Shown in pieces: positions 29,039 to 62,247 of a stretch of 64,000 nucleotides of DNA; positions within the stretch are counted from its first letter, which is position 1; the number at the start of each line of letters is the position of its first letter. The position numbers and the translations under genes were made by a program. The notes under the pieces were generated by a model. It ran no database searches, was not told the DNA's origin, and saw nothing but the letters and a program-made list of their open reading frames with translations. The DNA is from Portulaca oleracea. Its lineage: Eukaryota > Streptophyta > Magnoliopsida > Caryophyllales > Portulacaceae. Where the stretch lies: the NCBI GenBank assembly GCA_029582165.1, contig CM055893.1, forward strand, positions 25,395,179 through 25,459,178. Direction: 5' to 3'.

Positions 29039-29058
29039 TTTGTGCCCTAATCGCGCAT

Positions 29059-33151: not shown

Positions 33152-34866
33152 TGTTAGTCGAGTGGTTTGTAAGACCACGGTTTTATCGTTCTTCCAGAGG
33201 GAGCTAGGGGCCTTAGCTGCAACTAGTTGACTCTAGGTATGGTTTATGATCATGAAAGGATGAAAGACATTAGGGTGAAAACAACACAAACACGCTATGT
33301 TCAGTCAAAAAGGTAAAACAATAGGTATCGGGAGACTTTCGGGATGCAAGCGGGAATGAGGAAATGGGTTTCGTAACAAGTGAGTAACGAGAAAGGGAAA
33401 TCAAAGGGTATTTCCGTTAGAAAATACCCACCGGGCTTCCTCTTTCAAGGATAATCCGGATTAACTTCCCCAAAATCAATCGACAGACCCGGGAAAGTTA
33501 ATGGAACGAAATTTCCTAGTTAGTTTCTATTCGCTTTCGCGAACTAGAATACTAACTATCCTAATTCCTACCTTCCAACAAGTATTGAAAGTATTCGGGA
33601 TGCTTTCACACCTAAATACATCCCACTTGAGGGAAGGATAGGATTTGGAAATTGATTTCCTAACTAGTTACTCACTAATATTGCTAACCCAAACCTAATC
33701 ACCCATTCACACCCTTAATATCTCCCTAACCCATTAAGGTTCTAGCTACTAAACATCCTAACTATAATGATAATAACATCAACAACTTCATTCATGCTTA
33801 ATCGAGTAAACAAGATGACAATAAACATTCAACAACAACAACAATATCAAAAACAGAGATTAATAAATAAGCAATAAATTAGAGAGAGAGAGATTAAGAA
33901 ATGCTCATGGATTGTGATGACAAGAGAGAAAACATCATAATAATAAAGCTCCAATGCTCCAAAGTTGAGAATAATCTTCAAACTTCCAATAATAATCAAG
34001 AGAATCCAATACAAGAACCAATAATCTCAGCAAAAGATCTTCCTTAATCTCACTAATCTAAGACTTAAAAATGTGTTAAAGAGTGCTAAAGTATCATAAA
34101 AGATAGATAAAAACTACTTTCTCCTCCCCTTAATCTAAAATGACCTAAATATATTAAATAGTAATCAAGGTTGTTACTCAAAACTCATCATTTTACACAA
34201 CAGACAAATCTGGCCCGCAGGGGACCGTGGGCACGGTCAGGGTGACCGTGGCCACGGTCCTGCGTAAGGCAGGCGATTTCTCCTCTTCGCTTCGCACCAC
34301 CGTGGGTACGGTCCCCAAGAACCGTAGTCACGGTCTAGGCGATTAGGGCTGACAACTTTTCACTCCTTCGCACCGCCGTGGCTATGGTCATGGGATACCG
34401 TGGCCACGGTCTAGTTCGGCCAGCTTCTTCCTTGGGCAGGGTAGGATCCCACCGTGGCTACGGTCAGAGTAACCGTGACCACGGTCTATCTCGGGTGCAA
34501 GGCTTCTTCCTTAGGTCATGGCTCCATCATACCGTCGCTACGGTCTCTATGACCGTGACCACGGTCTCTCTCGGCCACAATTCCTTCCAGGGTGCTCTTC
34601 AGCCGTTGTCTCCGCTTCCGCTGCCTTTCGACATGGCCGGCCCTTCTAATCCTCTGCCTTTGACACGACCAGGGCTCGTGGAATCTTAGGGAATCTCAGG
34701 ATTCCCAAGATTGGTGCAAAATTGGCCCATTTAGAATCGTTTTGAGTGAAACCCTTCGGAAATACAAAAGTAACTAAAACGCATTAAAAGTTATTAAAAC
34801 AACTACGAAACAAGTCAAAAGCCTAAGGATTTAGGCGGTATTTAGACACGAAATCGGGTCTAAACA
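33152..34866 (-). repeat. Athila-1 LTR (3' LTR in sense orientation, 1715 bp)
   Basis: Begins in sense with TGTTTAGACCCGATTTCG and ends CTAACA. It includes a GA microsatellite (near 33884), an AAC-rich stretch and a five-pair dyad array. A TATA-like AT stretch (TTTAATATATTTAGG in sense, near 34148-34164) lies about 60 bp downstream of the array. Confidence 0.93.
34224..34565. promoter_or_regulatory. Athila-1 LTR dyad array: five pairs of 14-bp boxes
   Basis: Boxes of the form ACCGT-N4-ACGGT start at 34224, 34245, 34299, 34321, 34375, 34397, 34451, 34472, 34531 and 34552. Within pairs the start-to-start distance is 21 or 22 bp; pairs recur every 75-80 bp. The arms are conserved (34375 is the weakest, GCCGTGGCTATGGT), while the central bases vary (GGGC, GGCC, GGGT, AGTC, GGCT, GACC, CGCT). 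The DNA between pairs is more diverged. Confidence 0.9.
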
Positions 34867-34880
34867 CCCCCCCACACTTA
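34867..34880 (-). other. Athila-1 polypurine tract
   Basis: In sense TAAGTGTGGGGGGG, directly before the LTR start TGTTTAG. A perfect 8-bp hairpin (34885-34892 with 34895-34902) lies 4 nt upstream in sense. Confidence 0.88.
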
Positions 34881-34902
34881 AACCTTTGCTCGTCCGAGCA
34901 AA

Positions 34903-37184
34903 ACGAAACAAAACAAAACAAACTAGCACAAACTCCTCTGCCGTTGGAGAGAAACGAGTGCATTTAGCGTATGCACCAAGACCTTTGAACCCCCCGGCAG
35001 CCCGAGTGGACGAGATGGACTCGTGAGGATTTGTAGCGGCTGTACCCACAAAAGCCAAACAAAAAGGAGAGAGGGAAAGTGAAAACAAAACCGAAGAAAA
35101 CAAAAAGAACGAAAAACAAGGGTTTTGATTCACAAGATCTCGCAATCCAAACTAAGAAAACGTGATTAAACCTCCCAAAGTAATCGTTAGGAGCATCTCA
35201 TAAACACCAAACTCAAAAAAAGGTCGATCTTGAAGATTTTTAACTCCCTACACCTTGTAACAAGCGAAACCCCGCAGCAAAAATATAACAAGGGTTTAAC
35301 GGGAACCAAAACACTTTAAAAACTTGCGTCCGAATTTGAAAACAACGAACAACCGAGAGGAGTGTTGCCCTCCCTCGCATTTGGTCGCCCTTGGCTTTGT
35401 GAGGGCCGTAGGTGATGCAAGGGGAGGCCCCGCTCTTTTTAGAAGCAAAATTTTTCTTTTCTTTCTTCCTTTTCTCATTTTTCTTTCTTTTTGGTTTTTA
35501 AAAGTCGGTATTAGCCTTACTTTCGGGACTTGGACGACCCATATAAGGGGTATACCCTCCCAACATGGTCTTTTCCATACGCCTCTCCGTCGCAAAGCGA
35601 TGTAGGAGGAGGGTTAAGGGGTATCCAGTGCCGTACCACGAATACCGGGCTCGTGTAGGTTGGCTAAGTGCATGGTGGTTAATGTCTTCATGACACGCCC
35701 ACTTATTCAGGTTATTATCTCTTATTAAAACTTTCTTCTTTTATTATTTTCTTTTTCCTTTTCTTTTCTTTTCTTTTTGCACTTTTTGCTTTTGCTAAAT
35801 GAGAAACAAAAACAAACTCAGACACAAGCCCTTAGAATCTCCGGGTTCCCAACAAAACGAGAAAGGAACGGGAGTCGCACAAGACACTTAGCGAAGGGAG
35901 TCTATTAAGGGTAAGTCTCGACTAGAACCCGAGTTAGGGTCGAAAATGCTCCAACCGATTACTTTTAGAAAGAAGTTTAAGAACGGCTTCTCAACTTCGA
36001 TAACGAGATCCAGGAAACAAAGCAAAACAAAACGAAAAGAAAAACGAAAAGGTTTTCACTCCCTTTTTTCTCCATTTTCACACAAAAATTTTAAAAAATT
36101 AAGCAAAAACTAGCAAAACTAGGAAACAAAGAACGAGACGACTAGGTGATCTACCCTTGAAACAGAATATCTCCCCCCCTCCCCCCACACTTAAAACTCC
36201 ACAATCTCCTCATTGTGGGAAGGTGTCGCATGAAAAGGGTAGAGAACTTACAAAAACACAAACAAACAGAACAACTAGCAGGTAGAAATGGTGGCGACCC
36301 GAGCCCACACGGCTCCAACAACAATAGATATCCCAACACAGACACTCGTAGGGGTTCGCTACCCAAAAGAAAATCAAGCATGCGACCGATCATGATAAGG
36401 ATTCAGAAACAAAGAGTAAGGTGGAAAGATATTACCTCAGTCTTTTCATAAGCGTTGAAAATAGCGATCCGAAGTCGTCGTTCAAGAGAGTCAGATCAAT
36501 GTTAGAGTAAAAGACTTTTCAATTATAGAATTCGCATACGAGACCAAAAGCAAAAGAAAGGAAAAACTATCTTAAGCGATTATGAAAAGAAATTAAAAAG
36601 ATGAAAAATTGAAAATATGAACAATATATACATTGCCACTGACTTACCTTATCCCCGAATCTCACTCATTGAGGCGGGAAATAAGGGTGAAACTTGATAC
36701 GCACTAACCGAAATAACTAAATCATTGCATTCATCACAAAATAACATTCGAATACATCCATCCATGACCAAAATACAAGTGAGAAATGCTTAAACACAGT
36801 CCAGCCCACCAAAAACAACCGACAAACAACCATAAGACAACAATCCAACAACCCGACAAACATGAATGATAAACAAAGCAAGGAAAAACCCGAGCAACCT
36901 AGCCGAACAATCACTAAAATATGCGAGCTCATGCCAAAAGAAATTGAGAGACCAACAATCCAAAACCACCAGACATCGCAACTCCAAAACCCCGAAGAAG
37001 CACTTCCCCACACTTATACTTCACAAAATAAAGTAAATAGACAATGATAAAGGTCGGGTGGGGGTGGGGTGGTTACAAACGGTCCTCAAGCGGACCCTCC
37101 TGGCGGAGGACGGGGTTGGAGCTGCATTTGGATGCCAGCCAGCGTCTCCTGTTGGATCTCAAGCAATCCTTGTAAGTTTTCGAT
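34903..37184. other. Athila-1 3' noncoding tail (copy A)
   Basis: No convincing gene. It has a long pyrimidine-rich stretch (35446-35500), a second hairpin plus purine box at 36171-36218 and a weaker box near 37003-37016. The two ORFs near 35296-35605 lie on opposite strands of the same DNA and occur identically in copy B, so their repetition is not evidence of coding. Confidence 0.5.
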
Positions 37185-38400
37185 CTATAGTTGCTGGTTT
37201 TGGATGAGCTCCCGTTGGATCTGAAACTCATCATGAAGCTCCTGGAGTTGCTCGCTGATACGCTCAAGAGCAGTGTCCCGTTGTTGACTCGGCTCGGCTT
37301 CATCCCTTTGTACTTGTTCTTCTTCCTCCTCATCCTCTTCTTCCTCCTCTTCTTCATCTTCATCCTCACCTTCCTCCGCTCGATCCCCGGGACCACCCAC
37401 CACAAAACGATCCCCAAAAGTTTGGCCACACGACCAATTGCGTCGGTCGGAGACATCTAGATGTTGTTCGGCATTGTCGTCCCCCAAATGAATTACGACG
37501 TTGTGGGGTTCGTTCCCGTGACGGTATAATGTTCGCGTCCTGTGTTTCTCCAGGAATTCCATCTTTCGTAGGCGAACACCGTCGATAGGATTGGGGAAAT
37601 AGCGGGGAGTCCACTTCGTTAGATAGGACTCGAACCCTTGCTTTCTTAGGAAATGGGTGATGATGTGACCCATACCAATAGTCATGTTCCGGGTTTTGAG
37701 GCTTATTTCTCGGAGGCAATGGAGGATACAAGAGCCGGTGTTGACCCGGCGACCGTTTTATAGAGGACGAAGATGTCGTCTTTCCGGATGCTTGAACGTC
37801 CGGCGTCACGGCCAAAAACAGAGTTCGAAAAGAGGCGGTGGAAGATGCGGACGCTCAGATTACAGAAATCCCTAGCCTTAAAGTTGCTTGGGCAATAGTA
37901 CTTTGCTCGTTGCGATCGAACCCTCGGGTAACGTCTCCTCCAGCAAGTGAGCTCTTTCATAGCTTCTTGTTCATCGAATTTGACGCACTCACCGTAGGGT
38001 ATGCCGTCCTCGGGAAGGCCTAGAGCGTTGCATAAGTCTTTGAGCGTACACTCAACTTCCTTTTTGTTCACGATGTATGAAAAGGAGGCGTTGGATGTGC
38101 CGTCTTCCTTTACCACCAAAGAGTTGAGGAATTCGAGCACCGGTTGCTCGATGATCGGTTCGTTGATTGTGGCGAAGACTTTCCATCCCATGACTTTGAT
38201 GAAGAAGTCCATGCTTGGTTTACAGAAAATATCCCTTGCCGGGCCTTGTGCATATCGTCGCGAAAATTGACCTTAATTTTCGGGTCGCATTGAATAATCG
38301 AGGGCGGTTGACCCTTGTACCGAGTTTTATCGGGCTCAACCGAGGTTGATGGGGCGGGGGTTGATTCCGGTTCGGTTCGGGAACGTTTCGCTCGACCCAT
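37185..38400 (-). pseudogene. Athila-1 env-like / Transposase_32-type gene, copy A
   Basis: Starts MGRAKRSRTEPE at 38400 with a Pro/Ser-rich basic N-terminus. After a frame change near 38240 it continues as CKPSMDFFIKVMGWKVFA, FLNSLVVKEDG, VECTLKDLCNALGLPEDG. This is the plant retrotransposon domain annotated as putative plant transposon protein (Transposase_32), found at the env-like position of Athila elements. After a second frame change it continues from about 37685 with MTIGMGHIITHFLRKQGFES. It ends in a very acidic Glu/Asp run and a Gln-rich helix. Function is unknown; an env role is positional inference only. No membrane segment is seen in this copy. Confidence 0.65.
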
Positions 38401-39070
38401 TGGATACTCTGTAAGAAAATCAACCACCAAACACCGAAATGCAACACAACCAATACCCACAAATCCCGAGCAACACGAATTCACAACCAACCACAAGATT
38501 CAATCCCAAGAACAAGCAATACACTCCCAATCTCAGCAATATCAACCAAAAACTCAAACGCCAAACTCAATCAATTCATCCAACCAAACACACAAGCAAT
38601 TCACATAAGTGTCAACCACAAGTTCACCAAAAACATTCCCAACAGTCAATTTCAATAAAAATTTCAACCCCAAATTCTACTTACTCACCCAACCAAGACC
38701 CAACAAGCAATTTCATCAAATTCAACCCAAATAAACAATAATTTTAGTATCTAAGCACCAATAAATCAAGGAATACCTGGATTGAGGTGATGGGGAACTC
38801 CTCTTGTTAATTTCGAGCCCCACAAGGAACAAAGAGCCAAGAATCTTGCTTGAATAGAACCGGAAATGGCGAACTTCAGCAGCTAGGGCACGAACTGGAG
38901 AAGAAAGCTGGGAGAGATGGAGTAATTGGAGGTGGGTTTGTCGAATTTTGGAAGAGAATTCGAGTTTTAGGGTTTTAGGGAGGTTTTCGAGTGTGAGGGT
39001 GAGGAAGAAAGTGAAATAGAAATGAGGGGGAATGAGAGTGAAGCCCCGACATATCGCAGTTTTTCGACAG

Positions 39071-39334
39071 ACCGTGGCCACGGTCCATTTGACCGTGGGC
39101 ACGGTGTGATTCGGGTGAGGGAAAAAAGAAGGGAAAAAGCAGGGCGGAGACCGTGGCTGCGGTGAACCTCACCGTGGTCACGGTGATGTTCGGGACCAAA
39201 ATTTCCAAGAATCATGCTGCGATGAGACCGTGGCCACGGTGACTTCCACCGTGGTCACGGTGATGTTCACAGCTAAACCGGAGAACTTTGAGTATGCTGA
39301 CCATGGCTGCGGTGACTTCTACCGTGGGCACGGT
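39071..39334. promoter_or_regulatory. Athila-1 internal dyad array, copy A: four pairs
   Basis: Boxes start at 39071/39092, 39150/39171, 39227/39248 and 39300/39321. Start-to-start spacing in every pair is exactly 21 bp (7-nt gap) and pairs recur every 73-79 bp. The same ACCGT-N4-ACGGT family as in the LTR, about 0.67 kb upstream in sense of the env-like ATG at 38400. Confidence 0.88.
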
Positions 39335-39736
39335 CCCTTTCGGTTCATCTCCAGCACCTACAAGACTCAAAAACTTCGAGAAATAATGTTAAGTCCTAAA
39401 ATCTACCCTCTTGTCATCAATTCCCTTGTCTTTCTCGCTCAATTATCATTCAAGGACATTCTCTCAATACTCGAAGACACTTTCAAACTCCGACTCTCAT
39501 TGAACCACTCACGATTTTTTTTTTCTTTTCAAACTTTTTTGATTTTTTTTTCGCATTTTTATCTCTAAATTTTTTTCTAATAAGATAAAACAAAGGAAGA
39601 CGAAAGGCACTAAAATAAAGGAAATAAAAATGAAAGAACTAAAAATTGAAAGAAAACACTAAAAAAGGGGGAAGTAGTTCATACCTCTCCCGGGTGCCTG
39701 TTTTGTAGGTCCTAGCTCGACCTTTTCCAATGCTTT

Positions 39737-41612
39737 TCAATTTCCAAAATCCGCGAGGTATGTCACAACTGTCCCGACATATTCCTCGCCCATGATGTAT
39801 GGTTTGAGTTTCGATGAGTTTGCTTTGAAACACTTCCCTTGGGCATCTTTCAACTCAACTACTCCGGCGGAAAGAATTCTTACTATTTCGAATGGTCCGG
39901 ACCACCGTGATCTCAATTTCCTAGAGAACAACTTCAGCCTTGAATTGAAAATGAGAACCCTATCGCCTACCATAAACTCACGTCGGTTCAACCTCTTGTC
40001 ATGCCATGCCTTCGTTCTCTCCTTGTAGATCTTGTTGTTCTCATATGCATGATGCCTCAACTCCTCAAGTTCTTCTAATTGAAATAACCGACTACCTCCA
40101 GCCGTCTTGAGATCGAAGTTCAACTTCGTGATTGCCCACATGGTTTTGTGCTCAAGTTCTACGGGGAAGTGACATGCCTTCCCGTAGACAAGACGGTAAG
40201 GAGTAGTGCCGATCGGTGTCTTGAAAGCGGCGCGGTATGCCCACAAAACTTCATCCAATTTTTCTGTCCAATCTTTCCTTGAAGAGTTAACCGTCTTCTC
40301 TAAGATCTCCTTGATGGCACGGTTGGAGATTTCCACTTGACCTTGTGTTTGTGGATGGTAAGGAAGTCCCTTCTTATGCTTGATGCCATACTTCTCCAAG
40401 AGAGACTCGAATCTCTTTTCGATGAAATGGGAATCGTTGTCACTAATTTAATGATGACACGTGGATTGCCAAATCTTGGGAATAGGGTCTTTTTCAAGAA
40501 TTTCGAAGCGAATTTCCCATCACATCTTACACATGGGATGGCCTCGACCCACTTTGTGACTTAGTCTACCGCCACTAGGATGTATTGGAAACCCCTTGAC
40601 GATGGGAAAGGACCCATAAAGTCCAATCCCCATACGTCGAAAGCTTCCACCTCAAGAATATAGTTCAACGGCGCTTCATTCTTCCGGGAGATGTTACCAG
40701 ACCTTTGACACCTGTCACATTGCTTGACATGCAGTTGGGCATCACGAAAAAGAGTCGCCACCAATAGTGGTTTGCAAAACCCTTGCGCTCTTTGGGGCCA
40801 CCGTGACCTCCCACCGGAAATTCATGACAATGGGTCAAAATAGATTGCACTTCACTCTCGGGAATACATCGCTGGTACATCACGTCATTTCCAAGACGGA
40901 AGAGGAAAGGATCATCCCAAAAGTAATGCTTCATGTCGTGGAGGAATTTCTTCCTTTGATGATGGTTCAAGTGTTGAGGGATCACTTCGCTCGCCAAATA
41001 ATTCACAATATCCGCATACCAAGGATACGAGTTGATAGCCAAGAGTCGCTCGTCCAGGAAAGCGTCTACAATCGGTTGGATGTCTTCCAAGTCGACAATA
41101 ATCCTCGAAAGGTGATCGGCTACGACATTCTTCGTGCCCGCCTTATCGCGGATTTCAAAATCAAATTCTTGCATAAGCAAGACCCACCGTATAAGTCTCG
41201 GTTTTGTCTCCTTCTTTCCCATCGAGTATTTGATAGCGGCATGATCCGTGTAGACTACCACCTTAGAGAACATGAGGTATTGCTGGAATTTGTTGAGCGC
41301 AAAAACGATCGCCAAAAGCTCCTTTTCCGTGGTAGTGTAGTTCCTTTGGGCGCTATCAAGCGCATGGCGTGCGTAATAGATGACGCTTGGCTTCTTGTCT
41401 ACTGTTTGGGTCAAACACGCTCCTATGGCGAAGTCGCTCGCGTCGGCCATAATCTCAAAGGGTAGCGTCCAATCCGGAGGTTGAACAACCGGAGCGGAAA
41501 TCAAAGCCTGCTTCAACCTATAAAACGACTCAAGGCACTCATCAGTGAAAATGAAAGGGGCATCTTTGAAAGGGGCATCTTTGGGTTTTTGAGTAAAGTG
41601 AATGTAAAACAA
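39737..41612 (-). pseudogene. Athila-1 pol fragment, copy A (RT end, RNase H, integrase)
   Basis: From the junction near 41582 it reads [16 protein letters not shown], then RNase H ([45 protein letters not shown]). The integrase zinc finger ([12 protein letters not shown]...CDRCQ), integrase core ([25 protein letters not shown] with the catalytic Glu) and a C-terminal domain follow. Lesions shared with copy B are a TAA at 40561-40563 (in AVD-stop-V.KWVEA) and a 5-nt insertion near 40447 just before the second catalytic Asp. A private deletion near 40770-40795 removes part of the zinc-finger region. Confidence 0.88.
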
Positions 41613-43270
41613 AGAAAAAGAAACAAACTAAGAAAAGAAGCAAAGGAAAAATTACATGCTCTAACTAATGCAATCTAGGTGGATGCAATTTTGAAAGAAA
41701 AACTTAGAAAGAAAAGTTTAAGAAAACTAGAAAATAAAAGAAAAACACACTAGAACTCAAATAAAAGAAAACAAACAAGCTAAAAACTAACAAGACATGC
41801 TAAACTATGAATAAGAAAATAAAAGAAGCACACAAAATCAAGAAAAATCACACTAAAAACTCAAAAATAAGCATGAAACAAGAAAAAGAGAGACGAAATT
41901 ACTAGAACAATAAACGAAAAACAGAGAAATAAGAAAAATATTCACAGAATATTCAACCCCCCCATGCTTAAACGTTGCATTGTCCTCAATGCAGAAGACA
42001 ACGACGAAGGGTAAGGTCAAGTAAAGGATCAAGGATCCTCAGTCAGTGGGGGAGGGCTAGTATGGCTTGGTCCTGGTGGTGGAGATGGTCGATCGAACAT
42101 GGCCTGAATAAGGCCAGCAAGGTTAGCAATCGACTCGTCGAGGTGGTCGAAACGAAGGTCAATCTGAGCCATATACTCAACAAAACTATCTCTCAACTCA
42201 TTGACTCGGTGCTCGGTCCGGTCAATCGAGGGTTGGAGGTCACGAAAGCGCGCCTCATAGTCTGATTGGGGTTGTTCGGGTTGAGGGTCAGGGTGAATTT
42301 TAGGTTCAGGTTCAGGGTCAAACTCGGGGAAAGGAGGCATGCACATCAAGTTCTCAGCGACTTGGGGTGAGGTGTGGGGGTTAGGCACAGGGAATCTAGC
42401 GTTGTTGGGATAGATCCAAAGGCAATGCGAGTCCTTATCAAACTTGCACAAGCCAAAGTAATTACACTGGTCCCCATGCAAGAATAAACTACCCTAGACT
42501 AGGTCAGTGGTATTCCTAGGTGGCCTAAAGCCAAACTGGCGTGCAAGGTGAGTAATATAACCCCCTATGGCAATGCCCTCGTTGGTTGAGGTGGCGACGC
42601 TAGAAAGATGGTGAGCTAACATAGCTGCGGGGTCGGCACGAGCGTCGGCATCCAACATGGAGTATAACATATAGCAATCAGCCCGGATAGCTTTGTTTGA
42701 GCTACCGGGCCTTCCGAAAATGCCGCATGAGAGTATGCGGTGGACATACCTCATCACGGGGTTTTTAATTTTGGTCGCAGGGGTGTTTCTTGGGTCCCAA
42801 TCATCGAACCTTGAGATTCTAAAAAAGAAGCCCTTACCATCCCAATCTACGGGTATAAGGAATGAACTCCTGCATGTTCATTCAGGAAGGCCAAAGCCAC
42901 GGGCAAACTCGGACACGGTCATGGTCCTCTCTACCCCCAAAAGTCGGAAACGAATAACCCGGTCCCTTCCCTGAAGGTTCACAACTAGGGTCGATAGAAA
43001 CTCAAGGGTGATCCCCCTATAGGTCGGTTCACCTAACTTAGCAATGTTGGTCATGTGACAACGACTTAACATCCCATCAACATCATCCAGCATACCACAA
43101 CTATGCAGGAAAGGTTCATGCATGTATTTAGTAGGGACGATGGCTCTTTGGGAAAGAGATTGATACCTTTTCTTGGATTCCCCTTCAAAGTTGAAGGGGT
43201 TTGGGTTATCAGAATCCTTTGAGCGTGCGACCTTTTGCTTTCCCTTCTCCGCCACCGTAGCTTTGCGCTT
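41583..43270 (-). mobile_element. Inserted segment of Athila-2 type inside Athila-1
   Basis: Matches 59672-61355 of Athila-2 almost base for base, with small differences such as CATATACTCAAC against CCCTACACTCAAC. It begins and ends abruptly at the two copies of the Athila-1 block, with short duplications at the joints. It has no terminal repeats of its own, so it did not arrive as an independent insertion. Confidence 0.9.
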
Positions 43271-47431: not shown

Positions 47432-47699
47432 ACCGTGGCCATGGTCCATTTGACCGTGGGCACGGTGTGATTCGGGTGAGGGAAAAAAGAAGGGAAAAAG
47501 CAAGGCGGAGACCGTGGCTGCGGTGAACCTCACCGTGGTCACGGTGATGTTCTGGACCAAAATTTCCAAGAATCATGCTGCGATGAGACCGTGGCCACGG
47601 TGACTTCCACCGTGGTCACGGTGATGTTCGGCTTGGCTAAACTGGGAGAACTTTGAGTATGCTGACCATGGCTGCGGTGACTTCTACCGTGGGCACGGT
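47432..47699. promoter_or_regulatory. Athila-1 internal dyad array, copy B: four pairs
   Basis: Boxes start at 47432/47453, 47511/47532, 47588/47609 and 47665/47686, all pairs 21 bp start to start. It lies 0.67 kb upstream in sense of the env-like ATG at 46761. Confidence 0.88.
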
Positions 47700-49854: not shown

Positions 49855-49905
49855 TCGGAGCGGAAATCAAAGCTCGCTTCAACCTATAAAAGCGACTCAA
49901 GGCAC

Positions 49906-52200
49906 TCATCGGTGAAAATGAAAGGCATCTTTGCACAAGAGGTCGATTAGAGGTCGAGCAATTTTGAAAAATCTTTGTGAACCGTGATAAAAGCCGGCAT
50001 GGCCAAGGAAACTACGCACCCCCTTAACGGAAACTGGGGGTGGTAGGCGCTCTATAACCTCAACTTTGGCCTTATCTACTTCGATGCCCTTAGAAGAAAT
50101 TAAATGACCCAGAACGATACCTTGTTCCACCATGAAGTGGCATTTCTCCCAATTCAGAACTAGATCCACTTCCTCACAACGAGTTAACACTTTCTCCAAA
50201 TTTAGCAAATAGTCATCGAAAGAATTACCGTACATCGAAAAATCATCCATAAAGACTTCCATGCATTTTTCAATAAAATCACTAAAAATAGCCATCATAC
50301 AACGTTGAAAAGTCCCAGGGGCATTATATAAACCAAATGGCATACGACGATAAGCAAATGTCCCATATGGGCAAGTGAAGGTGGTTTTTTCTTGATGTGA
50401 GGGGTGGATTGGAATTTGAAAGAAACTCGAGTACCAATCCAAAAAGCAAAAATGCGAATGACCCGCCAACCGTTCTAACATCTCGTCAATAAAGGGAAGG
50501 GGGAAATGGTCCTTCTTTGTTACTTTGTTTAATTGGGGGTAATCGATACACATCCGCTAACCAGTGACGGTCCGGGTACTAACTAGTTCTTTCTTGTCAT
50601 TTTCAATTACGGTCAATCCACCCTTCTTGGGCACACGCTGAACCGGGCTTACCCATTCGCTATTTGCGATGGGGAAGATGATCCCAGCAGCTAGCAACTT
50701 TATTACCTCCTTTTTAACCACTTCTTGCATGTTGGGATTTAAGCGACGTTGGGGTTGCCTTGTTGGCTTGGCATCTTCTAGCAAATCAATCGAATGCATG
50801 CATATGGAAGGGGATAAACCTTTCAAGTCTTCTATCCAATAACCCAATGCACCCTTATGTTTTCTAAGCAAATCAAGCAACTTGGACAATTCGAAATCAT
50901 TCAAATTCGCATTCACAATGAGAGGATAAGATTTCTCATCATCCAAGAAAGCATATTGGAGGGAAGGGGGTAAGGCTTTAAGCTCTAAAGGAGTAGAAGA
51001 TTGAATTTGAGAAGAATACATACCGTTGAAGATCGCATCTTGAATCTCCATACACTCCATATAAGGCTCATCAATAATAATCTCCTTATGCATGGGTGAA
51101 GAGTCAAGAAGGTTGGTGAAGAAAGTAATATCGGTGCCGTCGGTCTCAAATTGGAAAGATACCAATAAGCAAGCTCCCAAGGGATCATCGCAAATAGATT
51201 CAAGGAGATGGGAGTCCTCAATATACTCATCAACAAGGAACTCCATCATGTCAATGGCATAGCATGAATCCCCATATGAAGGACCCTTCAATGACCCCTC
51301 AAGTTGAAAAATTATGCTTTCCTTCCCGACATTCAACGACATGCTTCCATTCTTCACATCGATAATGGCTCCCGCCGTAGCAAGGAATGGCCTTCCCAAA
51401 ATAATAGGGATGTTGTTATCTTCCTCTATCTCAAAAATCACAAAATCACAAAGAATTAAAAATCGCCCCACTTGGACCGGGATGTCTTCCAATATTCCCA
51501 ACGGTCTTCGCACGGAACGGTCGGCCAATTGAAGATTAATTGTTGTGGGAGCAAGATCGTCGAGATTTAACTTCTTGCAAATCGAATAAGGCATGACACT
51601 TACACTTGCTCCTAGATCACAAAGGGCACGACCAATCCGTATATCACCAATGGTGCATGGAATAGAAAAACTTCCGGGGTCGGCTAATTTCTCCGGTGAT
51701 TTGTTATCGATGATTGCACTACAATCCGCCATCAAATGGATCGTAGATTTCTCTTGAATTCTTCTCTTGCTCGTGAGAAGTTCCTTCAAATGCTTCTTGA
51801 AGGACGGAACTTCAGAGATGGCATCAAGAAATGGAATGTTCACTTGAAGCTTCTTGAGCATCTCAAAGAATTTTGAAAACTTTGCATCGGATTTTGGCTT
51901 TGCTAACCGATCGGGAAAAGGAACCGGTGGTAGCTTTGGCTTCTCAATAGTCTGGATTGGTTCTTCTTCCACCATTTTTCCTTTCCCTTTCCTTAACTTC
52001 TCTATCTCCTCTTGTTCTTTACTAGACTCTCCCAATTCATCCTCATGTGCTCTCTCAACTTCCTCACCTAATACTAACTCACTTTCCCGCTTCTCCAACA
52101 AATCTTCCTCGTCCGAGATATCCACCACGTTACCTTCTTTGTCACCTAAAACCTCCTGTCCTACCATTCTAGGTCCAGCAATCTCCTTGCCACTCCTCAA
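49906..52200 (-). pseudogene. Athila-1 protease and reverse transcriptase
   Basis: Begins in a Glu/Lys-rich linker after the LRSGKE motif typical of Athila gag-protease. It runs through PFPDRLAKPKSDAKFSKFFE and the aspartic protease core (ALCDLGASVSVMPYSI and IPIILGRPFLATAGAIIDV). RT follows: EWVSPVQRVPKKGG, MCIDYPQLN, MPFGLYNAPGTFQRCM and the catalytic FMDDFS (near 50237-50254). One stop, TAG at 50554-50556, replaces the Trp of TGWRMCIDY. RT continues at 49906 into the RNase H region. Confidence 0.92.
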
Positions 52201-53754: not shown

Positions 53755-53757
53755 TTT

Positions 53758-55456
53758 TGTTAGTTGGAGTGGTTTGTAAAACTACGATTTTATCGTTCTT
53801 CCACAGGGAGCTAGGGGCCTTAGCTGCAACTAGCTGACTCTAGGTATGGTTTATGATCATGAAAGGATGAAAGACTTTAGGGTGAAAACAACACAAACAC
53901 GCTATGTTCAGTCAAAAAGGTAAAACAATGGGTGTCGGGAGACTTTCGGGATGCAAGCGGGAATGAGGAAATGGGTTTCGAACAAGAGAGTAACGAGAAA
54001 GGGAAATCAAAGGGTAATTCCGTTAGAAAATACCCACCGGGCTTCCTCTTTCAAGGATAATCTGGATTAACTTCCCCAAAATCCATCGACAGACCCAGGA
54101 AAGTTAATGGATTGGAATTTCCTAGTTAGTTTCTATTCGCTTTCGCGAACTAGAATACTAACTATCCTAATTCCTACCTTCCAACAAGTATTGGAAGTAT
54201 TCGGGATGCTTTCACACCTAAATACATCCCACTTGAGGGAAGGATAGGATTAGGAAATTGATTTCCTAACTAGTTACTCACTAATATTCCTAACCCAAAC
54301 CTAATCACCTATTCACACCCTTAATATATCCCTAACCCATTAAGGTTCTAGCCACTAAACATCCTAACTATCATGATAATAACATCAACAACTTCATTCA
54401 TGCTTAATCGAGTAAACAAGATGACAATAAACATTCAACAACAACAACAATATCAAAAACAGAGATTAATAAATAAGCAATAAATTAGAGAGAGAGAGAT
54501 TAAGCAATGCTCGTGGATTGTGATGACAAGAGAGAAAATTTCAGAATAATAAAGCTCCAATGCTCCAAAGTTGAGAATAATCTTCAAACTTCCAATAATA
54601 ATCAAGATAATCCAATACAAGAACCAATAATCTCAGCAAAAGATCTTCCTTAATCTCCCTAATCTAAGACTTAAAAATGTGATAAAGAGTGCTAAAGTAT
54701 CATAAAAGATAGATAAAAACTATTGTCTCCTCCCCTTAATCTAAAATGACCTAAATATATTAAATAGTAATCAAGGTTGTTACTCAAAACTCGTCATTTT
54801 ACACAACAGACAAAACTGGCCCGCAGGGGACCGTGGGCACGGTCAGGGTGATCAGGCACGGTCTGCGTAAGGCGCGATTCGCTCTTCGCTTCGCACCACC
54901 GTGGGTACAGTCCCCAAGCACCGTGGTCACGGTCTAGGCGACAGGGTCGACAACTTTTCGCTCCTTCGCCGCCGTTTGGCCACGGGAGACCGCGCCACGG
55001 CCTAGTTCTCGCCTTCTTCCTTGGGCAGGGTAGGATCCCACCGTGGCTACGGTCAGAGTGACCGTGACCACGGTCTATCTCGGGTGCAAGGCTTCTTCCT
55101 TAGGTCATGGCTCCATCATACCATGGCTACGGTCTCTGTGACCGTGACTACGGTCTCTCTCGGCCACAATTCCTTCCAGGGTACTCTTCAGCCGTTGTCT
55201 CCGCTTCCGCTGCCTTTCGACATGGCCGACCCTTCTCATCCTCTCCCTTGGACACGACAAGGGCTCGTGGAATCTTAGGGAATCTCGGGATTCCCAAGAT
55301 TGGTGCAAAATTGGCCCATTTAAAATCGTCTTGAGTGAAACCCTTCGGAAACTACAAAAGTAACTAAAACGCATTAAAAGTTATTAAAACAACTACGAAA
55401 CAAGTCAAAAGCCTAAGGATTTAGGCGGTATTTAGACACGAAATCGGGTCTAAACA
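53758..55456 (-). repeat. Athila-1 LTR (5' LTR in sense orientation, 1699 bp)
   Basis: Nearly identical to 33152-34866 except for substitutions and a cluster of small deletions within the dyad array (54850-55015). Confidence 0.93.
54830..55154. promoter_or_regulatory. Athila-1 5' LTR dyad array, partly eroded
   Basis: Recognisable boxes start at 54830, 54898, 54920, 55040, 55061, 55120 and 55141. The partner of 54830 and the pair expected near 54970 are damaged by short deletions (for example GATCAGGCACGGTC in place of a full box). Confidence 0.8.
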
Positions 55457-56115
55457 CCTTTACAAAATTCTCTTAACAAAGGTCCAAGAATTAAATATAA
55501 GTCCAACAAAGTAAATGGATAGCATTTTAGATTGCATAATAGTCACTAGGCTCGAGAAAATTAATTTGTCGATTTAATTAATAAATTCACCGCATTTATG
55601 GCCGGCCCGGTGATAGGCCCAACCATAGTGGATTTGTTGATTTAGCCCATAAATTAATTACGACTCGCTTATTGTTGACTTTATTCAATCTTTTATAATA
55701 TCCATTTTCCTCGACTAAAAAAATGCAATAAAAAAAGAGGTAAAAAAAATTGGGTCGTCAGTTTTGTTGAAATATTATTCCTCTCCGCATAATAGTCATT
55801 ATGGCTTGAGCTGTCTGAATTATTCTGCCGAGTTATGGATTCTCCTTAAAACGGTCGACCTATGGATTTTGGCCCATCCGACTTGAGAAACACTGACTTG
55901 AACCTATTGATTTGTGACCCGCTCGCTATGTTTGGCTTTCTGCGGCCCTTTATAATGTTTTGTCCATAGGTTCATATAGAATTAGGTCATGCACTCCCAA
56001 AAAATGGGTGAGTCCCTTGTGTCAGCATATATGTGTCGAGTCAGTCAGGATCATATAGGTCTTTTAGGGCATGCATGCATCGGGTAGTATGTGTCAGAGT
56101 ATGTCATTGAGTGTT

Positions 56116-56600
56116 CTAACTTTGAATTTCCATGCAGGCATCATTGGTGATCAACTCCGAGCCCGCATTCGAGATCCGCGAACTGGTCGTTTGATTCCGA
56201 ACCCACATTACGATCCATCTGCAACTAGCGACAACACCATGTCTGGAGAGCAATTCCAAGAGATCCCGGTCCAAAGCACTGAAGCTAACATCACGAAGCA
56301 TTTAGACGAGCTCTACACCAAGATGCAGGGTCTAGTCTTCGCTAATTCCCTAGAGTAGGAACAGAAGATGGGCAAAAGGCTGAATGAACAACAACATGTG
56401 ATGGATGGCGTGCTGCAAGCCATCACTAAGATCAACACCAAGTTAGGGTTGAATGCTGAAGAAGATGATGAAGAAATGCATGGATATGAATCTGATCCTG
56501 AAATCATCAAGATATCCCCAGATTCTAGTGGAACAGGGATATCTAAGGCTAAGGTTAACACGCCTGAAAAGTCTACAAGGGATCTCGCTGTTAAAGCTCT
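56116..56600 (+). pseudogene. Gag start of the downstream Tat element
   Basis: Same protein as at 22801: RARIRDPRTGRLIPNPHYDP, ELYTKMQGLVFANSLE-stop (TAG 56356-56358), then in the same frame EQKMGKRLNEQQHVMDGVLQ and LGLNAEEDDEEMHGYES. It has about 19 extra residues (NTMSGEQFQEIPVQSTEA region) compared with the upstream copy. A TTTCCATGCAG acceptor-like site lies at 56127-56137. Confidence 0.75.
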
Positions 56601-56629: not shown

Positions 56630-56664
56630 GTTCCGGCTTTTGCAGACAAGTACTTAGAGGTTCC

Positions 56665-58008
56665 TGACAGACCTAAAACTAATAGGTGTCTGTTTACCGC
56701 AAGTGTACGGGTCTGTATAGTAATAAAATATCATTCTCTCTCAGGGATTTGCGTTCAACCACGCACTGAACTAGTTTACTACAAAGAATGCTAGGTCTAT
56801 CCAAAAGGTATAGTAAGGTTTTCTAAACTAAACTAGGAAAACTGAAAATTTTAGGGTTTAACCAGATAGTAAAAAAGCGTTCAGGGGAGTCCACTCTAGT
56901 CAATCAATCGAATCGTCTACAATTCCGATGCAGGTAATAAGATAATTCGGGGTCTATAATCTTTCTAGGCCTTATCACTTCGATATTTCGATCCTAGGTG
57001 AGTTACAGTAATTTAACTAAATATTATTTCTAACTATTTAGTCAAATTAAAGATAAAAACTGATTATAAATTGACCCTAGGCAAGAATCATTATGTCTAA
57101 CTATTTTCTAAACCTATTTAATCTACGCAATCCAATTCAAGACTCAAACTGTCGTTCTGTTGTCAAGAATCACGACCAGGTAAAGACTCAAACTGTCATT
57201 CTATTGTCTAATTACCATGACATACATCGCACGTAGATAAAACGAATAAAAAGATAACCTAACACCGAAACTGTATTCAAATTCAATCAAAAGACATTGA
57301 GTTTATACCCCAAACTAAAGAAATTAGCTACTCATGATACTAGAAATAAACATTGTGAAATCTAAACAAGAACAAGAAAACATAAAAGCAAAATAGAGAT
57401 AATCGTGTTCGAATTGGCGGAATCGATCTCTTCGTGTCACCCGAATCGATCTCTTTCGTGTTCTTCGATCACAAGTAACAACCTAATCTAATAACAATGT
57501 TTTAGAATTAATCCTAGAAAAATTATCTAAATCTACTCTAAAATTTCTTCTCAAAGCTCTCAAAAACGTCGGGTAAAAATCTTCCAATTTGCCCAATTAG
57601 TGAGACTTCCGCGAAAAAGCGCTGGCTGCGCCCCAAAAACGCGGGTAGCGTTTTCTCTTCTTCCGTTTTCTGAAGTTTCTGGACGAGACGCGAGCTGCGT
57701 TTATAGAACGCAGGCTGCGTCTTATCCCTCCGCCTTGAGGTGGGCTGGGCCTTGGTTTCTGGGCTATTTTCCTTCTTCTCCTTCTCTTCTTCTTCAATTC
57801 CCTTTTTTACTTCTTTTAATTTTATGCTATTTCTTCTCCAATTCTTCATGTTTTTGATATAATTCCATCAATTCCTGTAAAACATACCGAACTCACAAAC
57901 AAGTGTATAAATTACGGAAATTGACATAAAAATACTACATTTTGGATACAAAAAGCATGAAACTGATATGTTTTGAGCCCTAAAAACTCTATATAAAACG
58001 TCTTATCA
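56665..58008 (-). repeat. Athila-2 3' LTR (1344 bp)
   Basis: In sense begins TGATAAGACGTTTTATATAG and ends TTTTAGGTCTGTCA. Matches the solo LTR at 26173-29995 outside the MULE insertion. Contains two dyad pairs. No clear TATA box was found after the array in this copy. Confidence 0.92.
57619..57720. promoter_or_regulatory. Athila-2 LTR dyad array: two pairs of 13-bp boxes
   Basis: GCGCTGGCTGCGC (57619) with ACGCGGGTAGCGT (57639), and ACGCGAGCTGCGT (57688) with ACGCAGGCTGCGT (57708). Both pairs have a 7-nt gap; pairs are 69 bp apart. Confidence 0.85.
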
Positions 58009-58030: not shown

Positions 58031-58053
58031 GCTCTTGCTTGTCCCCAAGCAAG

Positions 58054-60119
58054 TAAAAATTGAAAATAGGAGGATTAGGGCTCAAATAGGAGAAACAAAA
58101 GCTAAGAAGAAAAAGTAGTGGAAAGAGTTTTTGATAGGATTACAAAAACAAAATCTTAACACCCCCTCAGGCTAACCATTCTAACACATCTATTCAACAA
58201 GCAAGCACAAAGATTAGTTTGGACAAGATCAAAACTCAGTTCGAAGTAGATAGGAAGAAATTTTCGAAACCAAAAGGAGAGAACAAGTACTTAAGAAGCA
58301 TAAACCCGCCAACAGACTTAAGAATAATGCAAATGTGAGCGGTTGGTTATGGACGTAAGTCAGTCAAAAAGAGCAAGCCTCACATAGGAAGGAATAAACA
58401 CTCAACCACTCAATTATGAATATGTATGTAGGTTTTCTCATACTCAAACCAATAGAAACAAACTACCATAAGCTTGGTAAGAACCTCGCTCTCCACTACT
58501 GGAATGCAATGCACAAGTGAATATCAAAAGGACTTTTTCGAGTTGTAACGGGGCTTAGGTTAAGGGTAAGGAGCGGTAAAATTTGGGAATGAGGAGTTAA
58601 GAGCCATGCTTGGATTGATTTTCAATGAATAAAACACTCTAAACTCTCCTTCTTGCTTAATGTATGCAAGGAATTTCACCTTTCTCCCTCAACAATATGA
58701 AACATCTCAACTGAATACAACCAAGTCAAAGTTTTCAGAACTTTAAATTGAAGCTCCCTAATCACCCTTTTCTTTTTGGAACTCTTTTTCTCTTTTTTTT
58801 TTACTTCTTTTTTTTTTTCTTTTTTGTGAGTGATCGGGGAGAAGAAAACTGTGAAACTATAACTTCGACCTTGATATAATAAATGAATAACATAACCAAA
58901 CACCATCATTCAAAATACGGGACTTTCAGATTTTCCCAATTCGAAACAATAAGCACAATTCCTCCATACTTCATATTTTGCTCACAAACACACCGAACCA
59001 ACTGTTTCTTCCAAAAAAAATGATAAACTCTCATCCAACCAAGCAAGGCAGAGGGACACTGGATATCAGAGGCCAAGCCTTGTATTGTCAGGGTTAAATC
59101 ATGAAAGAAGGGTAAACAAAGGCTAGGCGGGGCAAAAAGAACGTTAAATATAATGTAGGGTAGGCTATTTGGCAATGTAGCTTAACAAAATAAAATGAAT
59201 GCCTTAATCACTTTGTCACAGCGTGCAATGCAAATATGTAGTCTCAAGCAATATGCAAAGCAAGTTCTAGAGATGCAACTAATGGTGGAGTCACTCAGGG
59301 AATCATGGAATTGTTAAAAGTGATCAATTCAAAAGTTAAGGCAATGTGGACTCACGGGACGAGGCTCATTCAACTAAACTTAGCCCAAAGATTTGCGGCA
59401 CGCACATTTATACTTTCTAAGCTAGTCAATGCAGTCAAATGCAGCTTTCATAACTTGTCTCAAAATCATAAGAGTTGAAGGAAAAGGTTTCAAAAACTTT
59501 TTAGAACTCATCCAGACTTTTCTAAACGAAGCAAGTTAAAATGAAAGTAAGAAGGATTTACAAATCATCACCAAAGGTGTTTCCGGTTTTAATTGTAGTC
59601 CTATCCTATATTTTTTTGGTTTTTTGTCTTTTCTAATTTTTTTGGTCTTTTTTCTCTAATTTTCCGATTTTTTGGGTTTTTGAGTAAAGTGAATGTAAAA
59701 CAAAGAAAAAGAAACAAACTAAGAAAAGAAGCAAAGGAAAAATTACATGCTCTAACTAATGCAATCTAGGTGGATGCAATTTTGAAAGAAAAACTTAGAA
59801 AGAAAAGTTTAAGAAAACTAGAAAATAAAAGAAAAACACACTAGAACTCAAATAAAAGAAAACAAACAAGCTAAAAACTAACAAGACATGCTAAACTATG
59901 AATAAGAAAATAAAAGAAGCACACAAAATCAAGAAAAATCACACTAAAAACTCAAAAATAAGCATGAAACAAGAAAAAGAGAGACGAAATTACTAGAACA
60001 ATAAACGAAAAACAGAGAAATAAGAAAAATATTCACAGAATATTCAACCCCCCCATGCTTAAACGTTGCATTGTCCTCAATGTAGAAGACAACGACGAAG
60101 GGTAAGGTCAAGTAAAGGA
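58054..60119. other. Athila-2 3' noncoding tail
   Basis: AT-rich with T-runs (58790-58825 and 59600-59670). The ORFs near 58676-59175 lack family resemblance. The end from 59672 on is the part also present in Athila-1. A second hairpin plus purine box lies at 60048-60083. Confidence 0.5.
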
Positions 60120-61426
60120 TCAAGGATCCTCAGTCAGTGGGGGAGGGCTAGTATGGCTTGGTCCTGGTGGTGGAGATGGTCGATCGAACATGGCCTGAAT
60201 AAGGCCAGCAAGGTTAGCAATCGACTCGTCGAGGTGGTCGAAACGAAGGTCAATCTGAGCCCTACACTCAACAAAACTATCTCTCAACTCATTGACTCGG
60301 TGCTCGGTCCGGTCAATCGAGGGTTGGAGGTCACGAAAGCGCGCCTCATAGTCTGATTGGGGTTGTTCGGGTTGAGGGTCAGGGTGAATTTTAGGTTCAG
60401 GTTCAGGGTCAAACTCGGGGAAAGGAGGCATGCACATCAAGTTCTCAGCGACTTGGGGTGAGGTGTGGGGGTTAGGCACAGGGAATCTAGCGTTGTTGGG
60501 ATAGATCCAAAGGCAATGCGAGTCCTTATCAAACTTGCACAAGCCAAAGTAATTACACTGGTCCCCATGCAAGAATAAACTACCCTAGACTAGGTCAGTG
60601 GTATTCCTAGGTGGCCTAAAGCCAAACTGGCGTGCAAGGTGAGTAATATAACCCCCTATGGCAATGCCCTCGTTGGTTGAGGTGGCGGCTAGAAAGATGG
60701 TGAGCTAACATAGGCTGGCCTGCACGAGCGCCGTCGGCATCCAACATGGAGTATAACATATAGCAATCAGCCGGATAGCTTTGTTTGAGCTCTGGGCCTT
60801 CCGAAAATGCCGCATGAGAGTATGCGGTGGACATACCTCATCACGGGGTTTTTAATTTTGGTCGCAGGGGTGTTTCTTGGGTCCCAATCATCGAACCTTG
60901 AGATTCTAAAAAAGAAGCCCTTACCATCCCAATCTACGGGTATAAGGAATGAACTCCTGCATGTTCATTCAGGAAGGCCAAAGCCACGGGCAAACTCGGA
61001 CACGGTCATGGTCCTCTCTACCCCCAAAAGTCGGAAACGAATAACCCGGTCCCTTCCCTGAAGGTTCACAACTAGGGTCGATAGAAACTCAAGGGTGATC
61101 CCCCTATAGGTCGGTTCACCTAACTTAGCTATGTTGGTCATGTGACAACGACTTAACATCCCATCAACATCATCCAGCATACCACAACTATGCAGGAAAG
61201 GTTCATGCATGTATTTAGTAGGGACGATGGCTCTTTGGGAAAGAGATTGATACCTTTTCTTGGATTCCCCTTCAAAGTTGAAGGGGTTTGGGTTATCAGA
61301 ATCCTTTGAGCGTGCGACCTTTTGCTTTCCCTTCTCCGCCACCGTAGCTTTGCGCTTCCGGCTTCCTCCGGCTTCATTGTTATCACACGGTGATCCGGAG
61401 AAGCTAGGATTCTTAGTTCTAACCAT
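60120..61426 (-). pseudogene. Athila-2 env-like gene
   Basis: Starts MVRTKNPSFSGSP at 61426 with a basic, Lys-rich N-terminus (KRKATVAEKGKQK), then SLSQRAIVPTKYMHEPFL, GEPTYRGITLEFLSTL and LLGVERTMTVSEFARGFGLP. This is the Athila-type post-pol protein related to the Transposase_32 group. Stops at 60965-60967 (TGA) and near 60584 (TAG), plus several small indels between 60680 and 60800, break it. The C-terminal part is Pro/Glu-rich with a helical segment and ends PPPLTEDP. I see no clear membrane segment in this native version. Its function is unknown. Confidence 0.7.
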
Positions 61427-61471
61427 CTAAAATACTTCACAAATCAGTAAAATAACCAAGATAAATCCTAG

Positions 61472-61537
61472 GTATCAAATAAGCATGATCATAATGCAAA
61501 GATTAGTACTATCAATCCCCCCATGCTTATTTGATAC
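61472..61537. repeat. Perfect 16-bp inverted repeat enclosing a G6 purine box
   Basis: GTATCAAATAAGCATG at 61472-61487 and its exact reverse complement at 61522-61537, with a 34-bp centre. In sense, TAAGCATGGGGGG occurs at the inner edge of one arm. It lies just upstream of the env-like ATG (61426). Confidence 0.92.
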
Positions 61538-62180
61538 TAAGGATTGAAATCAAGATAAATTTAACCTAAATTCTCATAAAAAACAGAGCATAACACCACA
61601 AGTTAATACAACCAAAACCTTGACCTAAATTTCTCAATTTGAACATCACATTGCACTCTTAACGCATCGAACAACACAACCCTCTCAATTCTGGAACAAA
61701 AAGATCAAAGATCAAACAACTCTACCAAGCCCTAATCAAGAGTTCATTCAAAAATCAAATCTAAATCAAGAAATCCTAGTCTAGGGCATGATACATGATA
61801 TAATTTGAACAAATTACTCTATAATCTCAAGCATTCAACCAAATTAATACCAAGAATGAAGTATATAATCAAAGAATCAAGAGAAAGAGTTGAAAATTCC
61901 ATACCTTGAGTTGAAGAGGGAAGAGGGATGGAAGTTGAAAATTCAAAGTTTGAGAGTGCAAGTGAGAGGAAGTGAGAGAGAAAAGAGAGGTGAGGGTCAT
62001 GGTGGCCGGCGCCGACGAGAAGGTCGGCGGGAGTGGTGGTGGCGCGAGGCGCGGGTTGCGTTTGGTAGAGAGAGGTCGTCGGGTGTGTTAGGGCAAATAG
62101 GTGGGAGTATTATGTTTGAAAGGAAAAAGGAGAAGCCGAACAATTAAGAGGCAGGCAAAATTTTCTGGAAAAATTGAAAA

Positions 62181-62247
62181 ACGCGGCCTGCGTTTTCAAA
62201 ACGCAACCTGCATTTTGTAAAAATCAGGCGGCCAACGCTGGCTGCAT
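62181..62247. promoter_or_regulatory. Athila-2 internal dyad array: one pair plus one box
   Basis: ACGCGGCCTGCGT (62181) and ACGCAACCTGCAT (62201) with a 7-nt gap; a single ACGCTGGCTGCAT at 62235. Same box family as the LTR array, 0.76 kb upstream in sense of the env-like ATG. Confidence 0.8.

Follow-up and report, generated by a model that had tools for sequence, protein, structure and literature searches.

Paired palindromic box arrays as candidate promoter-proximal elements in two Athila-type retrotransposon families of Portulaca oleracea

The closest described system to the one considered here is that of the Sireviruses, in 13 of which Bousios et al. (2010) reported palindromic repeated motifs (RM boxes), most families carrying a sequence of their own (PMC2829016; this paper and those cited below are represented here by portions of their text). 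The motifs lie in the upper half of the long terminal repeat (LTR), upstream of the TATA box, and form CpG islands; the boxes begin 200-400 bp into the LTR and the TATA box is found on average 37 bp past the CpG island (PMC2829016). Extra copies were present upstream of ENV in nine ENV-bearing elements, 77 of the 79 linker copies being upstream of ENV, and the authors took this to favour an internal promoter for ENV, although they were unable to identify one conclusively (PMC2829016). That dataset was one of Ty1/copia elements, and Athila appeared in it only for an extra polypurine tract, for predicted splicing and as a reference (PMC2829016). A further precedent is the VANDAL/VANC system, a case of plant transposon self-activation through arrayed family-specific motifs (PMC5735166, PMC10398659). 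Here we describe paired palindromic boxes in two LTR retrotransposon families, Athila-1 and Athila-2, found in 64,000 nucleotides of Portulaca oleracea DNA (assembly GCA_029582165.1, contig CM055893.1, positions 25,395,179 to 25,459,178), referred to throughout as the window; the DNA evidence is that of this one window. On balance we lean towards the view that these are promoter-proximal regulatory arrays serving the LTR and env-like promoters of Athila-type Ty3/gypsy elements.

The Athila-1 box has the form ACCGTN4ACGGT and the Athila-2 box the form ACGC-N5-GCGT, and the arrays in which they are paired are as follows (ORF, open reading frame).

34224..34565, minus strand: Athila-1 3' LTR array, made of 5 pairs (10 boxes, one of them with 2 mismatches), at about 300-640 bp of the LTR
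39071..39334, minus strand: Athila-1 internal array, lying between the integrase and env-like ORFs and made of 4 pairs (8 boxes, one of them with 2 mismatches)
47432..47699, minus strand: the Athila-1 internal array in its second copy, carried by an internal duplication of 99% identity
54830..55154, minus strand: Athila-1 5' LTR array, 7 of 10 boxes remaining at no more than one mismatch, 3 broken, 3 pairs readable
28873..29038, plus strand: Athila-2 solo LTR array, 3 pairs, each exactly 20 bp apart
57619..57720, minus strand: Athila-2 element LTR array, 2 pairs
62049..62247, minus strand: Athila-2 internal array, one pair (62181, 62201) and single boxes at 62049 and 62235, between the integrase-like and env-like ORFs

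A preliminary description of this DNA had assigned the Athila-1 boxes to these four arrays, and all 30 of the window's matches with at most one mismatch (25 exact and 5 with one) do lie inside them, against a mean of 0.55 and a maximum of 3 in shuffled sequence; the box was also the top cluster of perfect 5-bp dyads in a whole-window scan (arms with at least 2 G/C). All four arrays are present, but only two of them are independent, the array at 47432-47699 being a near copy of that at 39071-39334 and the array at 54830-55154 belonging to the other LTR of the same insertion. Between the two LTRs the array (34218-34575 against 54824-55165) shows about three times the divergence of the remaining LTR and contains 18 gap positions. 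The pairing is regular, as had been claimed: when boxes with up to 2 arm mismatches are counted (34375, 39300, 47665), start-to-start spacing within pairs is 21, 22, 22, 21 and 21 bp in the 3' LTR array and 21 bp in all four pairs of each internal copy, and the distance from pair to pair is 73-80 bp. Random placement of boxes reproduced the Athila-1 regularity in 5 of 4000 trials for the LTR and 24 of 4000 for the internal array, and that of the solo Athila-2 LTR in 225 of 4000. For Athila-2 the window holds 18 matches (shuffle mean for the window 4.97), 11 of them in the three arrays, and the spacing is exactly 20 bp in all six pairs, 3 of the 12 paired boxes (28873, 28962, 57619) carrying 2 arm mismatches. 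The boxes of this family are weaker than those of Athila-1, their arms are longer than was supposed (see below) and the internal array is thin, consisting of one pair plus two single boxes; of the features of the solo LTR, neither the third pair nor the TATA was recognisable in the element LTR. The observed/expected ratio of CpG is 0.92-1.59 in the arrays and 0.73 in the window, a richness to be qualified by the value of 0.85 in Athila-1 pol. Boxes of the form ACCGTN4ACGGT also occur in ten IMG/VR viral contigs (L001-L010), each with at least 2 close together, 18 bp apart in 8 of the 10, 24 in L005 and 23 in L006; four boxes are present in L006, and three follow one another in L010. Scans of the viral contigs found one weak reverse transcriptase relative, at a contig end, among 15 stretches and, for integrase, no relative among 15 stretches.

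It had been proposed that the arms of the boxes are kept, whereas the central bases and the DNA between pairs vary. In a comparison of nine Athila-1 units (five of the 3' LTR and four of the first internal array, the other two arrays being omitted as copies) the arms of LTR and internal units are 0.86-1.0 identical, the 7-bp spacer within the pair is no more alike than chance predicts (0.23, P = 0.58) and flank identity is low, if slightly higher than chance (0.30 and 0.32; P = 0.0035 and 0.0025), so far in line with the proposal, but the box centres (0.62-0.72) are constrained too and not free. Units within one array share spacers and flanks at 0.33-0.41, which is above chance (P = 0.0005-0.025). 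The sense consensus of the Athila-1 box is ACCGT[GA][GCA]CCACGGT (18 boxes) and that of the Athila-2 box AAAACGCA[GA][CG]C[CA]GCGTTTT (14 boxes); the latter extends past the core, and the Athila-2 arms are therefore about 7 bp and not 4. Outside the boxes, a CGG begins at the seventh base after the second Athila-1 box in 6 of 9 units (3 of 5 in the LTR, 3 of 4 internal), an offset seen in 0 of 20000 shuffles, which treat as unrelated units that within one array are not. This CGG sits about one helical turn from the CGG within the second box, and its recurrence in both Athila-1 arrays implies a unit larger than two bare dyads. Judged by their centres, the Athila-2 boxes are uniformly oriented (13 of 14, P = 0.033); uniform orientation as a general rule was rejected, since Athila-1 has 11 of 18 (P = 0.68). 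The idea that the internal array is a recent copy of the LTR array was likewise rejected, the low-E matches between the two regions in Athila-1 lying within the arrays and the spacers being at chance.

As the preliminary description stated, the positions of boxes and ORFs place an array in the LTR and another between integrase and the env-like ORF in both families, and the following signals are found around them (donor sites are written with a slash at the exon-intron border).

34144..34160, minus strand: Athila-1 TATA-like stretch, 63 bp downstream (sense) of the last LTR-array box, recognised by sequence only
29059..29066, plus strand: TATAAAAG, starting 20 bp past the final box of the array in the Athila-2 solo LTR
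38777..39057, minus strand: C/T-rich leader-like stretch of Athila-1, C 34%, T 31%
38409..38776, minus strand: Athila-1 intron-like stretch, donor CAG/GTATTC, acceptor TTTTCTTACAG, C about 6%, T about 46%
61427..61904, minus strand: Athila-2 intron-like stretch, donor AAG/GTATGG (61904) best of the region, best acceptor 61691

The LTR boxes lie in the upper half of the LTR and upstream of the TATA, at about 300-640 of 1715 bp in Athila-1 and about 288-453 of 1410 bp in the Athila-2 solo LTR, and the solo LTR's TATAAAAG may be set against a frequency of TATAAA in the window of 0.47 per kb per strand. Further boxes are found between pol and the env-like gene in both families, clearly in Athila-1 and thinly in Athila-2. 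Behind both internal arrays the order is the same: a C/T-rich stretch comes first, then the donor that scores highest in the region, then C-poor sequence and finally the env-like ATG. In the two families C makes up 34-43% of the leaders and 6-10% of the intron-like stretches. In Athila-1 the donor at 38776 and the acceptor at 38409 are each the top-scoring site of the 1251 bp from 39400 to 38150, and the ATG follows 8 bp past the acceptor; the splice sites of both families were scored with crude matrices.

If the arrays are promoter-proximal regulatory elements, as we are inclined to think, each box would be a palindrome bound by a dimeric protein, of the host or of the element itself. With about two helical turns between the boxes of a pair, two dimers would come to lie on the same side of the double helix, and a succession of such pairs might make a strong, cooperative switch. 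The LTR array, upstream of the TATA box, would drive the genomic (gag-pol) transcript and the array behind integrase would drive a separate env-like transcript, with a C/T-rich leader of its own and an intron in the 5' untranslated region ending at the env-like ATG; each family would have its own box sequence at the same two positions, as in the Sireviruses. The observations on which this reading builds are the boxes, their pairing, spacing and positions, the constrained centres, the diverged spacers, the nearby TATA and the composition of the leader, donor and intron-like stretches, and from them we infer protein binding, dimers, same-face cooperation, the internal promoter and splicing. Paired DNA-binding sites, the first of the two interpretations put forward in the preliminary description, remain the best reading: between LTR and internal units the arms are kept and the spacer is at chance, and the LTR arrays end near a TATA box in the solo LTR and near a TATA-like stretch in Athila-1.

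A number of observations weigh against this reading and are best considered beside the rival explanations. The two Athila-1 LTR copies differ at 38 of 341 array bases, against 36 of 1065 and 9 of 290 elsewhere in the LTR, and within the array the changes fall on 9 of 96 arm bases, 3 of 32 centre bases and 26 of 213 others, counts that carry some ambiguity around indels. The arms, for which slower than neutral decay had been suggested as a check, are not protected in this LTR pair; since insertion, boxes have been lost at about the rate at which other array bases changed, and more quickly than the LTR outside the array has diverged. As arms and other array bases change alike between the LTRs, the conservation of arms is seen only across units, where the constraint carries an older history than the LTR comparison. 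CpG transitions, which make up 9 of the 38 differences, are a partial cause, and the divergence fits methylated, CpG-containing DNA in a dead copy, giving no evidence of protection. Unprotected arms would be expected of a neutral minisatellite, in which a 20-21 bp unit was duplicated to a pair and then amplified as a higher-order unit of 64-80 bp, the spacing being simply inherited. A repeat finder does detect tandem copies of 20-21 bp (34218-34259, 62178-62216), units of the same array share spacer and flank above chance, as given above, and the solo Athila-2 LTR has three pairs where the element LTR has two. By hand count the Athila-1 pair spacers are 7 bp in 7 of 9 units and 8 bp in 2 of 9, with gaps between pairs of 38-45 bp; per base, the pair spacing is at least as changeable as those gaps. 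Its constancy alone therefore proves nothing and is not clearly beyond inheritance from a duplicated unit. Against such an origin, the boxes of LTR and internal units are nearly intact though the intervening spacer is at chance identity, and two families without detectable homology in these noncoding stretches carry arrays at the same two positions. Simple minisatellites, an alternative named in the preliminary description, do not account for intact boxes on either side of diverged spacers, although the fixed spacing may be inherited, and we regard a neutral minisatellite as quite improbable.

Other points tell against the internal promoter in particular. At least eight acceptors of the region outscore the weak TAG that abuts the Athila-2 ATG at 61426; the C content of Athila-1 already falls before the donor, in the last 80 or so nucleotides of the leader (0.18 in 38860-38801, in 60-nucleotide bins); a stricter, post hoc composition rule picks 1 of 90 AGGTA sites, which is the Athila-2 donor, and misses that of Athila-1; and visual inspection showed no TATA box in the interval that separates each internal array from its leader. 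Good acceptors lie just upstream of both arrays (Athila-1 39358, Athila-2 62366), scoring 9.3 and 9.84 where window sites of at least 8 occur at 1.35 per kb, and the array could therefore belong to an exon. For the env of both Athila and BAGY2 there are published predictions of splice acceptors (PMC2829016), splicing has been reported for Bagy2 (PMC7264820), and a review says that env-like genes are transcribed from the 5' LTR (PMC7264820). These are the grounds for supposing that there is no internal promoter, the env-like mRNA being spliced from the LTR transcript, with the internal array an exon or splicing element and the LTR array the sole promoter array; this would leave unexplained both the same box family at the transcription-control position of the LTR and a separate leader with its own best donor, and we hold it to be unlikely. 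It might alternatively be supposed that the boxes act as RNA, either as transcript hairpins feeding small-RNA production or as an RNA signal for export, splicing or packaging. The Athila-1 arrays fold better than shuffles (z -5.9, 0 of 200; z -6.6, 0 of 100), the solo Athila-2 array moderately so (z -3.4, 1 of 200), the two boxes of a pair can form one long stem, and, according to a 2023 paper citing Bousios 2016, the structured regions of maize Sireviruses have an excess of mapped small RNAs (PMC10760457). Palindromes fold by construction, however, and the Athila-2 internal array folds unremarkably (z -1.4, 19 of 200). Complementarity between the centres of paired boxes does not exceed that obtained by permutation (21 of 36, P = 0.67), and the 11 arm mismatches (8 if internal copies are counted once), in a list that leaves out the 3 broken boxes of the Athila-1 5' LTR, are all transitions, none of them accompanied by a change in the partner arm; four, being G>A, would leave a G-U pair in sense RNA. 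Maintenance of RNA hairpins by pairing was rejected, there being no covariation in paired centres or arm mismatches. The hairpins suggested as the second interpretation in the preliminary description have gained no support beyond what palindromes give automatically, and a role as RNA is in our judgement doubtful.

The window is plant DNA containing the two LTR retrotransposon families, and was taken as such because the named relatives of the Athila-1 gag-protease ORF are flowering plants. For that ORF 7975 candidates were scored and 3262 passed; the 120 matches listed have 39-54% identity and are plant retroelement proteins, the named ones from several families of flowering plants. The elements and their env-like genes are delimited as follows.

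33152..34866, minus strand: Athila-1 3' LTR, TG..CA edges, 5-bp flank CCTTT at 33147-33151
53758..55456, minus strand: Athila-1 5' LTR, right edge fixed with the CCTTT repeat, left edge from alignment to the 3' LTR
39737..40399, minus strand: ORF taken as the C-terminal part of integrase, on the upstream side of the Athila-1 internal array
38110..38400, minus strand: ORF of 96 amino acids, probable start of the env-like gene, its ATG following the predicted acceptor
37703..38212, minus strand: Athila-1 env-like ORF piece, Transposase_32 (PF20167), 26.7 bits, below the curated cut-off of 45
28586..29995, plus strand: Athila-2 solo LTR, 5-bp flanks ATATT and ATAGC unequal
60965..61426, minus strand: Athila-2 env-like ORF, PF03078 (ATHILA ORF-1 family), E 2.5e-8, 33.6 bits, above the curated cut-off of 20.2

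The Athila-1 insertion is on the minus strand between LTRs at 33152-34866 and 53758-55456 that are 94.8% identical, and is flanked by the 5-bp repeat CCTTT. Read in the sense direction, an ORF with protease (52200-50557) comes first, and the reverse transcriptase ORF (50553-49906) starts 3 bases after it; the ORF at 41612-40665, of which there is a copy at 49854-48922, has RNase H and a weak integrase zinc-binding match, and that at 39737..40399 matches rve_3 (E 0.1) and a Tf2-1-like SH3 domain (E 0.019), each under its own cut-off. The order protease, reverse transcriptase, RNase H is that of Ty3/gypsy. In Ty1/copia elements integrase stands between protease and reverse transcriptase, and this order, which is that of the Sireviruses, is not found in Athila-1. 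The 169-amino-acid ORF at 38212 overlaps the 96-amino-acid ORF in a different frame, and the Athila-1 and Athila-2 env-like ORFs are 30% identical over 56 amino acids (E 6e-5 in a single comparison). Assignment of Athila-1 to the Athila lineage is provisional, being based on layout and resemblance and not on a tree. In protein searches 0 of 21 candidates passed for the Athila-1 env-like piece and 1 of 11 for that of Athila-2, under a length rule because of which full-length relatives of such pieces are missed. Athila-2 is represented by a partial element on the minus strand, running from an LTR at about 56.7-58.0 kb to the integrase-like ORF, with its upstream end at 63255, and by the solo LTR. 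A 335-amino-acid ORF (27598-28605) with a MuDR-type DNA-binding domain (PF03108) reaches 20 bp into the left edge of the solo LTR, which looks as if it had inserted into a Mutator-like transposase gene. The 3' half of Athila-1 is duplicated inside the insertion (34918-41568 and 43274-49933, 99.05% identical), and between the copies, at 41580-43270, lies a segment from the env-like region of Athila-2 that shares 98.9% identity with 59671-61357. With the LTRs only 94.8% identical, this rearrangement looks younger than the insertion of Athila-1; recombination between Athila families is known in Arabidopsis (PMC2410132). Athila-1 itself lies in a repeat, since its flanks (32870-33151 and 55457-56176) match the unbroken stretch 21890-22882 at 77-78% identity, with CCTTT repeated at the insertion point. 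Elsewhere in the window a 341-bp tandem repeat (3.3 copies, 6030-7168) lies near a tnp2-type transposase fragment (9092-9874).

A bolder and rather unlikely extension of the regulatory reading would make the env-like product, or a factor tied to the family, the binder of its own palindrome pairs. The result would be a self-reinforcing, family-specific circuit of anti-silencing or activation in which the env-like gene is a regulator and not an envelope, which would have arisen independently in Athila and Sireviruses, and in which box and binder co-evolve as in VANDAL/VANC. Hints in this direction are the pronounced drop of methylation in the LTRs of one sunflower Athila clade (PMC12844716) and a Transposase_32 match with nuclear localisation signals in an extra ORF of sunflower Athila (PMC11728184). 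The fold of the 169-amino-acid env-like piece, predicted without relatives, had a mean predicted local distance difference test score (pLDDT) of 35.8 and was unusable for identifying an element-encoded binder, and a PDB sequence search yielded nothing better than E 0.18.

The preliminary description knew of no earlier account of this arrangement, and in substance that was wrong, for the Sirevirus RM boxes are family-specific palindromes in the same two places (PMC2829016). Like the boxes of both Athila families they are CpG-rich and stand upstream of the LTR TATA and of ENV, as far as the available text shows. The half-site CGG/CCG is common to Sireviruses and Athila-1 but is reversed in the latter (CCG..CGG), and the CGG-CCG core of the Sireviruses, to which Tnd-1 is the one exception listed (PMC2829016), contrasts with CGC..GCG in Athila-2. 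Sireviruses are Ty1/copia elements, a different superfamily from the Ty3/gypsy Athila, and neither regular pairs 20-22 bp apart nor a leader with an intron-like stretch is mentioned for the RM boxes in the available parts of that paper (PMC2829016). The VANDAL/VANC system resembles the Athila arrays in its short, family-specific, noncoding motif arrays, which diverge by tandem repeat turnover; VANDAL, in contrast, is a DNA transposon, and the VANC21 motif is a directional 9-mer in same-orientation arrays to which protein binding has been shown, whereas the Athila boxes are known from sequence alone (PMC5735166, PMC10398659). Among related Ty3/gypsy elements, Retand has family-specific tandem repeats between pol and the 3' LTR, palindromic boxes being unmentioned in the text available (PMC11963269), and Grande is a precedent in that its accessory gene has a promoter of its own (PMC7264820). 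The Athila env-like ORF is in sense orientation, unlike gene23 of Grande and the common TRP28 ORFs of Retand, which are antisense (PMC7264820, PMC11963269). In Arabidopsis, the gag and env ORFs of Athila are reported to show purifying selection, inter-family recombination and expressed sequence tags (PMC2410132), which would suit a useful env-like product but does not show its promoter. No earlier report of such arrays in Athila was found among the titles and abstract openings listed in searches of open-licence literature or in passages of a few papers, and an earlier description is possible. If the regulatory reading is right, how and why plant elements express env-like genes becomes directly testable, and array, leader, donor and ATG together would be a simple marker for env-like genes in other plant genomes. 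A single control layout, with family-specific palindrome arrays at the LTR promoter and before the env-like gene, would then be common to env-bearing plant LTR retrotransposons of two unrelated superfamilies. The main advance over what has been described is a Sirevirus-like layout in Ty3/gypsy elements, together with the regular pairing of the boxes and the order leader, donor, intron, ATG.

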